47,069 nt of DNA from Bacteroidetes bacterium HGW-Bacteroidetes-3 (lineage in GTDB: Bacteria > Bacteroidota > Bacteroidia > Flavobacteriales > Flavobacteriaceae), in the NCBI GenBank assembly GCA_002842505.1, contig PHDE01000006.1, positions 1 to 47,069 on the forward strand. Direction: 5' to 3'. The stretch's first letter is position 1. Each line of letters begins with the position of its first letter. This document shows positions 17,077 through 45,666 of this stretch, piece after piece. The position numbers were made by a program, and so were the translations under genes. The notes beneath the pieces are model-generated. The model searched no databases and was not told where the DNA came from. It worked only from the letters and a program-made list of their open reading frames with translations.

Positions 17077-17110
17077 AAAAAAACCACGAAAAAAGAATTT
17101 TCCGTGGTTT
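17077..17110 (-). terminator. Terminator of the copper receptor gene
   Basis: Arms AAACCACG (17081-17088) and CGTGGTTT (17103-17110) form the stem, with a T7 run on the minus strand. It lies 70 nt after the TonB receptor stop codon and ends the putative copper operon. Confidence 0.8.
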
Positions 17111-17179: not shown

Positions 17180-19183
17180 TTATTTTATCACAAAAGAAAC
17201 ATTGATAAAAATATTTCTTCCCATTCTTGGTATATTTTTCCAATCGGCAAAAGTGGAATAATACCTGTCGAAAATATTTTCCACACCTGTTTTTACAAAA
17301 ATTTTATTTTCACCTTTATAAAAAGCATAAGACGCATTTGCGTTAACCACCGTATAGGCGTTGGTTGCATCTTCCCCATAAACGCTGCTGTAATTGTATT
17401 GTTTTTCAGCTCCTGACATCCCAAATTCAGCATCGAATAAATTGTTTTTATAACGCAACATCAGTCTATAATTTAGCGGACTAATCAAAGGCAAATTGTC
17501 ATTGTCATTTCCTTTTCCTAAACTATAGCCTATCAATCCGTCCAATCTAATAGCATCAGAAATTGAATATTCACTCGAAAAATTTGCAGTAAATATAGTA
17601 GCATTATCTAAAGCTGTATACACTTTAACGCCATCGGCGCCTATGGTCATTCGGTCATAATTAGGATTCAATTTTCCAATAATATACTCTGAAATATAAA
17701 AATAAGAGCCTTCAACACCCAAATTAAATTTTTTGCTTGTATAATTTACCGCAGCATTAAACTCCAATGATTTTTCATTATTCAAATATGGATTTCCAAT
17801 ATAATCATAGTTGTCGAAGCTGTTGAACAAATAAAATCCGTACGCTTCGGTAACAGAAGGCGCTCTTTCTCCGTAACCAACACTTCCCGAAAATTGAAAC
17901 TTATTTTTTTGGTATTGATATTGTGACGAGATACTCATTAAAAATCTTTGCTGATTTTTATCCAAATTCGGATAAAATATTTGCAAACTGTTCAACCCGA
18001 AATCATTGGCAATGGATTCATTTTGAAAACCAATTCTGGCAGTCATTTTTAAATTGCTGTTTTTATTCAACTTATAATCATCTTCACCATAAAAACCTGA
18101 ATAAAATGTCCTCACATCTGGCCAAGTGAGCATAAACATCAAATTTTCGTTTGGATCGCTTGGATACATCGTCATTTCTGCCAAGGCTTTATTGTAATAG
18201 GCATTTGTATTAAAAAGCAGCGAATGTTTGTCTTTTTCAACCTTCATTTTTGAGTAAAATCCGTAAGTATCGCTCCAGCCCGGCATATCCATATGAATTG
18301 GGACATCAGGTCGTTTTGTATCGTCCATCACGTGCGTAATCGTGTTCATATAAAGCTTTGTTTCCCATTCACTTATCTGGGAATTTTTATTCTGATACTG
18401 ATAACTCACCGAAGTAATCAATGCTTTTGCTGAAGAAACATCCATTGTCAACGCAGGATAACCAATATTTGTGGCATTATCGAAAATAATTGCGCCAACA
18501 ATAACGCCATTTTTGCTGATTTTTGCGCCTGCAACCGTTGAAATATTGTATTTTTCATATTGAGAAAACTTAATTTCCATATTGCCGCCAGCCGTGTAAT
18601 TATCCGATTTTCTATAGATGGCATCGGCATTTACAAAATAGTTGGAATTAGAAAAATTTAATTCCGCACTCACTATTTTGGCATTTCCGTTGGTTTCATA
18701 ACCTGTGTCAAACCCTACATTTAACACTTCCTTATTAAAACTGCCTTTTTGTAATTTTAAATCGATTCCACCACCAATTGTCGATCCGTTTTCAGCACCT
18801 TGCTGTCCGGATTTCACGTGGACTTCCGATAAATTTGAAACATCAACATAAGAAGTTATTGGGTCCATTTTATCGGTACAAGCGCCAAATATTTGCATAC
18901 CGTCAATGGTAACCGAAATTCTGTCGCTCACCATATTGTTAATGGCTGGTTCCCAAGCATAATTACCACGCTTAATCATCGTAATTTTGTTCGATTTTTC
19001 TAAATATTCATCAATAGAAGCAAGTGGTTTTACCTGATTTTTATTGTTTAGCGATTCTCTATTTACTACAATTACTTCCCTTAGTTGCACAATTTTGGCG
19101 GTATCCTGAATTTTTTCTTGGGCAGAAATTATCGCTGTAAACAACAACAAAACTAGGAATCCGATTTCAAATTTTCTCCTCAT
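17180..19183 (-). CDS. TonB-dependent outer-membrane receptor, OprC-like (copper)
   Basis: A 667-residue outer-membrane beta-barrel receptor with an N-terminal signal peptide (cleavage near ISA-QEK, residue 21). The plug domain follows (about 35-150) with VTIDGM, then the barrel, which ends in Phe-Val-Ile-Lys. It has the methionine/cysteine copper site described for Pseudomonas OprC: CTDKM (C102, M106) corresponds to CxxxM, and THVMDD (H284, M286) corresponds to HxM. The block MDPITSYVD also matches TonB copper receptors. It is the last gene of an operon, after a Met/His-rich lipoprotein and a Cys-rich membrane protein. Import of copper ions is therefore likely; transport of another soft metal is the alternative. 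A hairpin (19199-19228) lies just before its start. Confidence 0.82.
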   Translation of the reverse strand: MRRKFEIGFLVLLLFTAIISAQEKIQDTAKIVQLREVIVVNRESLNNKNQVKPLASIDEYLEKSNKITMIKRGNYAWEPAINNMVSDRISVTIDGMQIFGACTDKMDPITSYVDVSNLSEVHVKSGQQGAENGSTIGGGIDLKLQKGSFNKEVLNVGFDTGYETNGNAKIVSAELNFSNSNYFVNADAIYRKSDNYTAGGNMEIKFSQYEKYNISTVAGAKISKNGVIVGAIIFDNATNIGYPALTMDVSSAKALITSVSYQYQNKNSQISEWETKLYMNTITHVMDDTKRPDVPIHMDMPGWSDTYGFYSKMKVEKDKHSLLFNTNAYYNKALAEMTMYPSDPNENLMFMLTWPDVRTFYSGFYGEDDYKLNKNSNLKMTARIGFQNESIANDFGLNSLQIFYPNLDKNQQRFLMSISSQYQYQKNKFQFSGSVGYGERAPSVTEAYGFYLFNSFDNYDYIGNPYLNNEKSLEFNAAVNYTSKKFNLGVEGSYFYISEYIIGKLNPNYDRMTIGADGVKVYTALDNATIFTANFSSEYSISDAIRLDGLIGYSLGKGNDNDNLPLISPLNYRLMLRYKNNLFDAEFGMSGAEKQYNYSSVYGEDATNAYTVVNANASYAFYKGENKIFVKTGVENIFDRYYSTFADWKNIPRMGRNIFINVSFVIK

Positions 19184-19198
19184 AAAAATGATTAATTA

Positions 19199-19228
19199 AG
19201 GTCGCCTAATTTTTAAAAAAGGCGACCT
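19199..19228 (-). other. Intercistronic stem-loop ahead of the copper receptor gene
   Basis: AGGTCGCC and GGCGACCT pair over 8 bp around a 14-nt A/T loop, 15 nt before the receptor ATG. No T-run follows on the minus strand. It may be an mRNA processing or stability element that sets the lipoprotein-to-receptor ratio. Confidence 0.5.
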
Positions 19229-19246
19229 ATTAATATTAATTAGTAT

Positions 19247-20092
19247 TTAAAATTCCAATTCCAAAAATAAAGTGCTGGCTTCATTTGTTTCCGTCACAGC
19301 TTCGCCTTTTAAAATTTCATTACTTTGGTTGCGCAACATTAAATTGAGTTTCCAATAGCCCGTCATTGTTAATGAAAGTTTGCCATCATACAATTTTGTT
19401 ACTGCATTATAAACCAAATCCTGGTTGTTTGGAGAACTGTGATTTCCCATACTTGGCATACGCGGATCCAAATTTATTTTGAAATTTTCAACGACAGGAA
19501 AACTCATCATATTTTCCATTTTAAACAAGCCAATGGTGATGTCGTTAATTTTAACAGCAGGATTTTTCGGTTCAATAAGCGCTAAAACATATTTTACACC
19601 GTCAATACCCGTTACGGATGTAACCGTTTTTTTAGTTGAAGCTGGCACACCAATAAAATCAACTGCTTCATAAGCGATGCCGTTAATGGTATAATTAAAA
19701 GTTAAGTCCCATTTTTCCATTTGGTTCTCTGCCATTTGAAAAATTATAAATCCGTTGTAAACAGTTTGCATCCCGGAAACTTTTACAAGATCGGATTTTG
19801 GACAGGAATGTGCCATTTCAGTCATATGCATCATTGGTTTCCAGGTAATTGTTGCATTTTCAATAAATGCTTGGGTGCTTTTATCTTTTATTCTGATGGT
19901 TAGGTTGTTATAACCCTGAACCAATTTTCCTGTTTCTGTATAAATTTCAATGGTATGTTTCTCATTTGAAATCTCTTGGACTTTAAGTAAATCCTGAACT
20001 TCATCGATTGTGTCAATATCGTTATCGTCATCCGAACAAGAGACAAAAACGAGGGTAAAAATTGCCGGTAAAATATATTTTAAAAATTTCAT
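19247..20092 (-). CDS. Met/His-rich lipoprotein, putative copper-binding (YtkA/FixH-like)
   Basis: A 281-residue lipoprotein with lipobox LVFVSC (Cys near residue 19 of the chosen start). The mature protein begins CSDDDND, like many Bacteroidota lipoproteins. It looks like two beta-sandwich repeats of the YtkA/FixH type. It contains clustered soft-metal ligands: PMMHMTEMAHSCP in the first half and RMPSMGNH in the second. The start is the ATG at 20092 (MKFLKY); the ORF track's extra ten residues spoil the signal peptide. It lies upstream of the OprC-like receptor in the same direction, so a periplasmic or surface copper-binding partner role is inferred. No close experimentally studied homologue is known to me. 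Confidence 0.72.
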   Translation of the reverse strand: MKFLKYILPAIFTLVFVSCSDDDNDIDTIDEVQDLLKVQEISNEKHTIEIYTETGKLVQGYNNLTIRIKDKSTQAFIENATITWKPMMHMTEMAHSCPKSDLVKVSGMQTVYNGFIIFQMAENQMEKWDLTFNYTINGIAYEAVDFIGVPASTKKTVTSVTGIDGVKYVLALIEPKNPAVKINDITIGLFKMENMMSFPVVENFKINLDPRMPSMGNHSSPNNQDLVYNAVTKLYDGKLSLTMTGYWKLNLMLRNQSNEILKGEAVTETNEASTLFLELEF

Positions 20093-20364
20093 ATTTTTGA
20101 TTTTTATAATTTTGATACGCATAAATTATACATTATCAATGTGTTACTTTTATATATTATTGAAATAGCAGAAGTTGGCAACAGGAAATAATTTTATATA
20201 CCTGTAACTCCAGCATTAAAAATTGGCTATTTTCCATTGTGCAGCAAACACCATTTTATAAAAAATGTGTTTGATGAAGTATTAAGAATCAATTCATTGC
20301 AACACACAATAATTTATGTAATACCCTGATTTTAATTGTTAATATTGAAAAATAGCGAAAGGAA

Positions 20365-20742
20365 TTAAGCTTGCGGCGGTTTCAATAGAGAATTATAGAA
20401 ATCTTGTGAAGTGTATTTATTAACAAAAAATCTATGAATGTAATTCGCGTCGAAGTTTTTAATGTTGTATGAAAATTGATCTAATGGTGAAACTGGATAT
20501 TTCTCAAAATCAATTTGAGGAATGGTCGATTTATGTTCGTGATTGTTATGATTTGTTTTAGCAATTTGTTTTTCTAAATAACACTTTCCGTTACACTCCA
20601 AATAGGGTTTGTCCCTGTTTTCGCAAAGCACTTTGGCGATATAATCATAATTGGCATAATACTCCATTATTGGAACTAATGGACGAACCATAGCCAATAA
20701 ATAAAGCAGGTAAAAAAATATGCCTAAAAATTGATTTTTCAT
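20365..20742 (-). CDS. Cys/His-rich membrane protein, first gene of the copper operon
   Basis: A 125-residue protein with an N-terminal membrane segment (about residues 5-24), then a Cys cluster CENRDKPYLECNGKC (about 40-54, including CNGKC) and a His-rich run NHNNHEH. The pattern CE.RDKP.L.CNGKCYL recurs, as I recall, in small Bacteroidota proteins encoded beside metal receptors, but no function is established. It is placed directly behind the CRP/FNR-like promoter at 20.76-20.81 kb, and the lipoprotein and receptor follow. A metal-handling role in the envelope is inferred from its ligands and neighbours. 272 nt separate it from the lipoprotein start; I see nothing else in that gap. Confidence 0.68.
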   Translation of the reverse strand: MKNQFLGIFFYLLYLLAMVRPLVPIMEYYANYDYIAKVLCENRDKPYLECNGKCYLEKQIAKTNHNNHEHKSTIPQIDFEKYPVSPLDQFSYNIKNFDANYIHRFFVNKYTSQDFYNSLLKPPQA

Positions 20743-20761
20743 AAATGTTTTAAATACAAGA

Positions 20762-20808
20762 CAAATGTATCTTTTATTTTTTATTCAGAAAGTGACAAAA
20801 GTCACTTT
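20762..20808 (-). promoter_or_regulatory. CRP/FNR-like box and promoter of the copper operon
   Basis: The perfect inverted repeat AAAGTGACAAAAGTCACTTT (20789-20808) has its centre at 20798.5. The minus-strand -7 element TACATTTG begins at 20769, exactly 29.5 nt away, which places the activator near -41.5. The same geometry recurs at three cytochrome promoters in this window. The box overlaps the menA stop codon. Confidence 0.8.
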
Positions 20809-41131: not shown

Positions 41132-41177
41132 AAGTGACTTATGTCACCTAAACCGGGTTTTGTTCTTTTTAAATTTA
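41132..41177 (+). promoter_or_regulatory. CRP/FNR-like box and promoter of the diheme cytochrome gene
   Basis: The inverted repeat GTGACTTATGTCAC (41134-41147) is centred at 41140.5. The -7-like TAAATTTA starts at 41170, which is 29.5 nt downstream, as at the copper operon promoter. The start codon follows at 41204. Confidence 0.75.
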
Positions 41178-43805: not shown

Positions 43806-43851
43806 AGATGACTTAAGTCATTAAATAAATTATTCACCTCAACTACTTTTA
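43806..43851 (+). promoter_or_regulatory. CRP/FNR-like box and promoter of the EB_dh-like lipoprotein gene
   Basis: The perfect palindrome ATGACTTAAGTCAT (43808-43821), centre 43814.5, is followed 29.5 nt later by TACTTTTA (43844-43851). The geometry is identical to the copper and diheme promoters. Confidence 0.78.
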
Positions 43852-45621: not shown

Positions 45622-45666
45622 GATGACTTAAATCATAATTTTACGCAAACCAAGTAACTAATTTTA
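45622..45666 (+). promoter_or_regulatory. CRP/FNR-like box and promoter of the hexaheme lipoprotein gene
   Basis: ATGACTTAAATCAT has its palindrome core at 45624-45635 and its centre at 45629.5. TAATTTTA starts at 45659, again 29.5 nt downstream. One half-site carries A in place of G (ATCA for GTCA). The start codon follows at 45700. Confidence 0.72.

Follow-up and report, generated by a model that had tools for sequence, protein, structure and literature searches.

A three-gene operon of a Bacteroidota genome that most likely imports copper for anaerobic nitrous oxide respiration

Introduction

Reduction of nitrous oxide (N2O) to N2, the step that completes denitrification, is limited by copper, and copper supply decides whether bacteria that carry out this step can destroy that greenhouse gas. 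In Pseudomonas the TonB-dependent copper receptor OprC/NosA (TIGR01778) is the closest described counterpart of the receptor considered here; NosA has been linked both with N2O reductase and with expression under anaerobic conditions (PMC8610252), and the role of outer-membrane NosA in N2O reduction is disputed. Two copper-responsive leaders known by experiment also have a bearing on this work, namely CutF of Rhodobacter, which leads an oxidase operon (PMC9973294), and CruR of Bordetella, a DUF2946 protein that leads a receptor operon (PMC9426467) with the TonB-dependent transporter CrtA/BfrG and a PepSY_TM protein. Here we describe a three-gene operon whose most likely function is to import copper for anaerobic N2O respiration. 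The operon is located in a stretch of DNA of 47,069 nucleotides (the window) that constitutes a single contig (PHDE01000006.1) of the 3.55-Mb metagenome-assembled genome (MAG) of Bacteroidetes bacterium HGW-Bacteroidetes-3 (Flavobacteriaceae), and it encodes a small protein with the motif CNGKC (P0003), a lipoprotein (P0002) and an OprC-like receptor (P0001).

The operon combines components of known kinds, OprC/NosA on the one hand and CutF/CruR on the other. P0001 is like OprC/NosA in its fold, in both halves of the CxxxM-HxM site and in its many methionines on the extracellular side, but it is about 18% identical in the fold alignment, scores far under the TIGR01778 cut-off, comes from Bacteroidota, and is accompanied by a dedicated lipoprotein and by a leader of another sequence family. 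P0003 shares with CutF its small size, hydrophobic N-terminus, CxxxC motif, C-terminal Pro-Pro, lack of a Pfam domain and position as the first gene before copper genes; it differs from CutF in that it heads an uptake operon rather than an oxidase operon, carries one more invariant Cys, 10 residues ahead of CNGKC, and has no leader-specific stem-loop that we could find. With CruR it has in common a Cys motif, a C-terminal Pro-Pro at a fixed distance and a copper-receptor operon, whereas the P0003 family has CxxxC in place of CXXC and [HKR]PP in place of RAPP. The companions found downstream of CNGKC leaders (OprC type, MbnP/H, SCO and PepSY_TM) are those reported for CruR (PMC9426467). The lipoprotein is like the YtkA-like family (PF13115) and CrdA of Helicobacter pylori in the M-P-x-M motif and the fold of its C-terminal domain, but unlike these it is a two-domain lipoprotein that is fixed beside a TonB-dependent receptor.

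Taking sequence, structural models and comparative analysis together, we consider it probable that this is a doubly gated copper-import operon, in which an anaerobic Crp/Fnr-type promoter and a leader sensor would control capture of copper by the lipoprotein, uptake by the receptor and supply to the N2O reductase NosZ. In a phylum rich in N2O reducers, this conserved operon links a receptor of the OprC/NosA type with nosZ through its position, its co-occurrence and its promoter, which makes the disputed role of NosA directly testable.

Results

The receptor retains both halves of the OprC copper site

When P0001 was compared with the sequences of solved structures in the Protein Data Bank (PDB) using phmmer, only OprC was matched (E 1e-13). 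The alignment puts both half-sites in register with those of OprC (GACTDKMD with GACPNRMD, and THVMDD with DHIMDN), and the residue altered in 6z8s, an OprC mutant that is also aligned, is the Met that pairs with M286 of P0001. A prior reading of this DNA, made from the sequence alone and referred to here as the sequence-only reading, had proposed that the receptor keeps the OprC site as C102/M106 (CTDKM) and H284/M286 (HVM); both the claim and the numbering are right, and all four residues are invariant in 36 relatives. (Note that a single MAG copy, L039_16, has Val in place of M286.) Six further Met, at positions 298, 300, 337, 339, 349 and 351, are invariant in the same relatives, a series that is compatible with a methionine track. 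An AlphaFold2 model of P0001 built with the 36-sequence alignment (predicted local distance difference test (pLDDT) 77, predicted template-modelling score (pTM) 0.78) retrieved OprC at each of ranks 1-23 in a Foldseek search, the best template-modelling (TM) score being 0.76. P0001 also matches TIGR01785. Taken together, these findings suggest that P0001 is an OprC-type copper receptor, with a predicted role in copper import, and it is the sole receptor of this type found in its genome.

The four OprC ligands and the six invariant Met kept by P0001, together with the fact that the nearest solved relative of the second domain of the lipoprotein is a copper protein, make it very unlikely that the substrate of the receptor is a copper chelate or a different metal instead of ionic copper, even though CrtA, the receptor behind CruR, takes up chelated Cu(II) (PMC12914433) and the OprC-site pattern was not found in the receptors of 25 of the 65 leader loci described below.

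In most genomes of the same genus, this chromosomal position is occupied by a second subfamily of receptors, 756 residues in length. These receptors likewise retain the copper site (NACPNRMDPIT and DHLMTN), which argues that the locus houses a copper receptor in the genus regardless of the subfamily present.

A two-domain lipoprotein is conserved together with the receptor

Translation of P0002 from the ATG at 20092 yields a lipobox, the open reading frame start at 20122 being an upstream extension. The lipid-bearing Cys19 is followed by SDDD (CSDDDN after lipidation). Signals for the export of lipoproteins in Bacteroidota include SDDDD in B. fragilis and SDDFE in F. johnsoniae (PMC5080379), and the N-terminus of P0002 has the same pattern of a polar and then acidic residues after the lipid Cys. 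Moreover, at least two acidic residues are present at positions +3 to +7 in 69 of 80 lipoprotein relatives. P0002 is therefore probably located on the cell surface.

The model of P0002 is all beta, with two beta domains (pLDDT 90.5). The C-terminal domain resembles Helicobacter CrdA in fold (TM 0.73 on the target; root-mean-square deviation 3.5) and, weakly, by profile (E 0.0077); a PDB sequence search with the lipoprotein alone gave no match. All 41 of the aligned lipoprotein members matched the YtkA-like family PF13115 (E up to 0.1; best 4e-11), P0002 itself scoring 17 bits, which is under the cut-off of 25.9. The Met/His/Cys motifs to which the sequence-only reading had drawn attention, PMMHMTEMAHSCP and RMPSMGNH, are present at residues 86-97 and 211-218, and within the 41 sequences M88, M90, H95, P98, M212, M215 and H218 are invariant, with C97 conserved in at least 90%.

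Conservation of gene order and proximity to nosZ were counted in the best 80 of at least 575 lipoprotein relatives in named genomes; the closest named relatives among the matches listed are from Lutibacter MAGs (Flavobacteriaceae). The order CNGKC leader, lipoprotein, receptor, which bears out the neighbourhood search for a CNGKC protein beside OprC-like receptors that had been suggested, is kept in 76 of these 80 loci. One locus has the order leader, receptor, lipoprotein, and the remaining three either run off their contig or have no recognised leader. These findings support the suggestion that the lipoprotein, which belongs to an unnamed family, is an undescribed partner of the receptor.

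The operon is linked to nosZ by promoter, position and co-occurrence

The -7 box of Bacteroidota promoters is TAnnTTTG. Upstream of the operon, such a box lies 23 nt downstream of a Crp/Fnr-type palindrome (Table 1), and the corresponding pattern TGAY-N4-RTCA-N23-TAnnTTTR is found at 34 sites in the genome, as compared with 1 site for the reversed pattern. In the upstream regions of 83 leaders, the spacer between palindrome and box is 22-24 nt in 54 (23 in 30, 24 in 22 and 22 in 2); two other spacers gave one match each, and the reversed pattern gave one match across all spacers. Note that the 16-mer AGTGAC-N4-GTCACT on its own is not enriched in the window (8 occurrences versus 5.9 expected), enrichment being seen only for half-sites at the fixed distance from the -7 box, and that scans for sigma-70 promoters and terminators returned no more than chance.

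The same promoter architecture is present ahead of the nos operon of the genome (TGATTTAAATCA-N23-TACATTTG) and ahead of three further genes of the window (Table 1). Genes behind the genomic sites also include those for PFOR subunits, a molybdopterin oxidoreductase, ResB, flavodoxin, a ribosome-hibernation factor, a universal stress protein and PPDK, which is an anaerobic set. The operon thus shares its promoter architecture with nosZ, PFOR and the cytochromes of the window, which confirms the tie to a cytochrome regulon that had been noticed from the sequence alone. The position of the palindrome is class-II-like for Crp/Fnr, and a regulator of the Crp/Fnr type is predicted to act on the operon; a Crp-family gene is nearby in 37 of the 80 loci. 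As a separate observation, the single pattern palindrome-N23-TAnnTTTR reads out a genome-wide Crp/Fnr-like regulon, nos and cytochromes included.

The genome has a nosZ gene of its own, truncated at the end of its contig and preceded by genes for a fasciclin-type protein and a cytochrome c. Among the named loci, nosZ is within 10 kb in 40 of 80 (38 of the 62 full-length loci), other frequent neighbours being norB, quinol nitric oxide reductase and a Crp-family regulator. No nos or nor genes were found nearby in any of 18 loci of the 756-aa receptor type. Across 298 genomes of the order, nosZ is above the cut-off in 58; of 17 canonical lipoproteins 15 co-occur with it, as do 24 of all 36 lipoproteins (Fisher p 4e-10 and 2e-11, respectively, values that are indicative because the genomes are related). 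N2O reductase had been named by the sequence-only reading as a likely customer for the copper, and the presence of nosZ in the genome, the common promoter architecture and the adjacency of nosZ in half of the named relatives all speak for it.

It is possible, although we regard it as doubtful, that the receptor serves general copper nutrition and that its link to N2O reflects common anaerobic regulation and gene clustering rather than dedication to NosZ. The strength of the nosZ adjacency and co-occurrence and the anaerobic type of the promoter argue against this explanation, whereas several other observations are in line with it: 19 of the 62 full-length lipoprotein loci are without nos or nor nearby, most nosZ-bearing relatives have the other receptor subfamily, OprC/NosA is found in non-denitrifiers, and one nosA knockout was without a NosZ defect (PMC8610252). 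In addition, the genome contains three COX1-family genes (heme-copper oxidases); as P0001 is the only OprC-type receptor found there, these oxidases may depend on P0001 for their copper too.

The first gene encodes a putative copper-sensing leader

The search rule published for CutF-like proteins comprises small size, a hydrophobic N-terminus, CxxxC, Pro-Pro within the 15 C-terminal residues, no Pfam domain and a next gene on the same strand (PMC9973294). P0003 has 125 residues, one N-terminal hydrophobic segment (judged by eye), the motif CNGKC, Pro-Pro two residues before its end, no domain match in a Pfam search, and a next gene on the same strand. The sequence-only reading had described P0003 as a Cys-rich membrane protein; the Cys motif holds, but with its single hydrophobic segment the protein is better described as exported or anchored than as integral to the membrane.

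CxxxC is present in all 111 relatives of P0003, and Pro-Pro is present inside the last 14 residues in 109 of them. The distance from the last Cys to Pro-Pro is 64-71 in 108 of these 109, and H, K or R precedes Pro-Pro in 95. In an alignment of 46 sequences the only invariant positions are C40, C50, G52, C54, P122 and P123, and the middle of the protein varies. Because Pro-Pro is written with 14 different codon pairs across the family, selection acts on the protein. The family, for which Pfam has no entry, is present in 149 of 395 sampled Bacteroidota genomes, with the C-terminal Pro-Pro in all 65 of the copies examined phylum-wide; as a check on circularity, Pro-Pro was also found in 11 of the 12 copies whose profile match ended before the tail. 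Receptors or other copper-type genes follow 58 of the 65 copies, gene classes having been assigned with profiles built in this analysis, and Pfam/NCBIfam confirmed MbnP, a MauG/MbnH-like di-heme enzyme, SCO1/SenC and PepSY_TM behind representative leaders.

Since the architecture of P0003 is that of the nascent-chain sensors CutF and CruR, P0003 is more likely a putative copper-sensing leader than the partner of the receptor for which it had been taken. Its hydrophobic N-terminus, CxxxC, variable middle, fixed spacing, Pro-Pro before the stop codon and the many different copper-type genes downstream do not support the latter role. In particular, it is unlikely that P0003 is a structural partner in the form of a small, periplasmic, membrane-anchored carrier that takes copper from the receptor. 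Although the protein is probably exported, has three invariant Cys and often His-rich stretches, and always adjoins copper-type genes, its conservation is limited to the Cys region and the last residues, a terminal Pro-Pro would be superfluous in a carrier, the genes behind the leader are unrelated to one another (MbnP, SCO and several receptor types), and the architecture is the same as that of proven leaders. (Note that the carrier and sensor roles are not strictly exclusive.)

As to the family as a whole, the phylum-wide comparison leads us to favour slightly the idea that CNGKC proteins, with the pattern C-x9-C-x3-C, about 68 residues and then [HKR]PP, form a class that senses copper as nascent chains throughout Bacteroidota and controls its acquisition post-transcriptionally. 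Here, combined with an anaerobic Crp/Fnr-type promoter, such a sensor would restrict lipoprotein-assisted import of the OprC/NosA type to cells that are both anoxic and short of copper, at the onset of NosZ building. The class is not wholly new, as a survey reports CutF-like proteins in Bacteroidota (PMC9973294). If the family is a true sensor, it would bring arrest-type copper sensing to Bacteroidota, where we found no experimental study of such sensing, and it would mark copper genes of unknown function.

Two arrangements of these leaders are recorded here as side observations. In L254 and L297, two CNGKC leaders lie in direct series ahead of one receptor. In L249, L255, L298, L300 and L061, CNGKC leaders, as is often seen, lie ahead of a family of about 300 residues with a CDxCGC-like start and no Pfam match, which is possibly an outer-membrane copper protein.

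A model for doubly gated copper import

We propose that the operon would work in five steps. First, a Crp/Fnr-type activator, presumably responding to anoxia or nitrogen oxides, would bind at TGAY-N4-RTCA, centred near -41, and turn on the operon together with nosZ, PFOR and cytochromes; the promoter architecture and the regulon are observed. Second, the nascent CNGKC leader chain would bind copper through its cysteines, translation at the C-terminal [HKR]PP being coupled to downstream expression. By analogy with CruR, the chain would stall when copper is lacking, allowing expression to continue, and copper would free the stall and switch expression off. Third, the lipoprotein, whose fold class, ligands and co-occurrence are observed, would capture copper by means of its Met/His/Cys ligands and hand it to the receptor. 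Fourth, copper would pass through the receptor by way of the OprC-type CxxxM-HxM site and a TonB-driven step, as homology, fold and conservation of the site suggest. Fifth, periplasmic copper would be supplied to NosZ above all and probably to other copper enzymes. Copper binding, stalling and transport are what we infer from the comparative analysis.

Several observations weigh against this model. P0001 scores 127.7 bits against TIGR01778 and does not reach the equivalog cut-off of 472.45, which makes it OprC-like rather than an OprC equivalog, and the plug of its AlphaFold2 model is of low confidence. The spacing in CNGKC leaders is about 68 as compared with 45 in CruR, and membership of the leader in DUF2946 was ruled out, there being no match to PF11162 in 46 members at E up to 1. 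A leader-specific stem-loop of the kind found in cutFOG was rejected as well: gaps between leader and lipoprotein genes are more strongly folded than shuffled sequences (mean z -2.4), yet folding is stronger still in those between lipoprotein and receptor genes (mean z -4.25; z below -2 in 64 of 73 loci), and folding of the former is thus not specific. Finally, 2 of the 17 canonical carriers are without nosZ, and most same-genus genomes with nosZ carry the 756-aa receptor instead, which argues that a P0001-type receptor is not required for NosZ. On balance, the sequence-only reading was probably right about copper and the receptor and is well supported in its guess of N2O reductase, and the first gene is probably a sensor and not a partner.

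Layout of the locus and side observations on related loci

The co-directional layout that had been described is correct: all three genes are on the minus strand, at 17180-20742, and they are flanked by genes for a UbiA prenyltransferase and an MBL-fold hydrolase. Table 1 lists the features of the locus.

Table 1. Positions of features of the copper-import operon and of related promoters in the window
Feature	Position	Strand	Basis
Leader gene, CNGKC protein P0003, 125 aa, putative CutF/CruR-like nascent-chain copper sensor	20365..20742	-	CxxxC, C-terminal PP, spacing, phylum-wide survey
Cys motif of leader, CENRDKPYLECNGKC, residues 40-54	20581..20625	-	C40, C50, G52, C54 invariant
C-terminal Pro-Pro of leader (KPPQA-stop), residues 122-123, putative stalling site	20374..20379	-	P122, P123 invariant in 46 sequences
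Lipoprotein P0002, 281 aa, two beta domains, second YtkA-like	19247..20092	-	model, YtkA matches, CrdA similarity, invariant ligands, acidic N-terminus
OprC-like TonB-dependent receptor P0001, 667 aa	17180..19183	-	PDB sequence match to OprC, Foldseek, TIGR01778
CxxxM half-site, C102-M106 (CTDKM)	18866..18880	-	invariant in 36 relatives
HxM half-site, H284-M286 (HVM)	18326..18334	-	invariant in 36 relatives
Operon promoter: Crp/Fnr-type palindrome TGACTTTTGTCA (arms over 20789-20808), 23-nt spacer, -7 box TACATTTG (20762-20769)	20762..20804	-	sequence, genome-wide geometry, inverted repeat
Gap between leader and lipoprotein genes, 272 nt, strongly folded in this genome	20093..20364	-	fold z about -4 vs dinucleotide shuffles
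Hairpin AGGTCGCC...GGCGACCT between lipoprotein and receptor genes	19199..19228	-	inverted repeat
Terminator-like inverted repeat 3' of receptor gene	17081..17110	-	13-nt arms, 92% complementary
Same promoter architecture, cytochrome c gene	41135..41177	+	genome pattern search, sequence
Same promoter architecture, ethylbenzene-dehydrogenase-like gene (PF09459)	43809..43851	+	genome pattern search, sequence, Pfam
Same promoter architecture, multiheme cytochrome gene	45624..45666	+	genome pattern search, Pfam

The hairpin between the lipoprotein and receptor genes may set the ratio of lipoprotein to receptor. The operon ends at a 13-nt inverted repeat, as expected from the strong terminator that had been described there, but the terminator scan does not list it.

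Tandem CNGKC-led cassettes occupy the same chromosomal site in L039, L044 and L045/L069 (relatives G023, G014 and G002). In addition to leader-lipoprotein-receptor, one cassette at these loci encodes another receptor of 756 residues, a 341-aa protein, a membrane protein of the 4Fe-4S type, an HGD-D (2-hydroxyacyl-CoA dehydratase-like) protein and the BcrAD-type ATPase that belongs to it, and a further one encodes a 775-aa receptor with a 412-aa lipoprotein; L039_8 resembles a remnant of the usual receptor. MbnP-like and MbnH-like genes are familiar companions in methanobactin operons, and an MbnP-like gene and an MbnH-like (di-heme) gene lie behind a diverged operon copy in L068 (G018) and L274.

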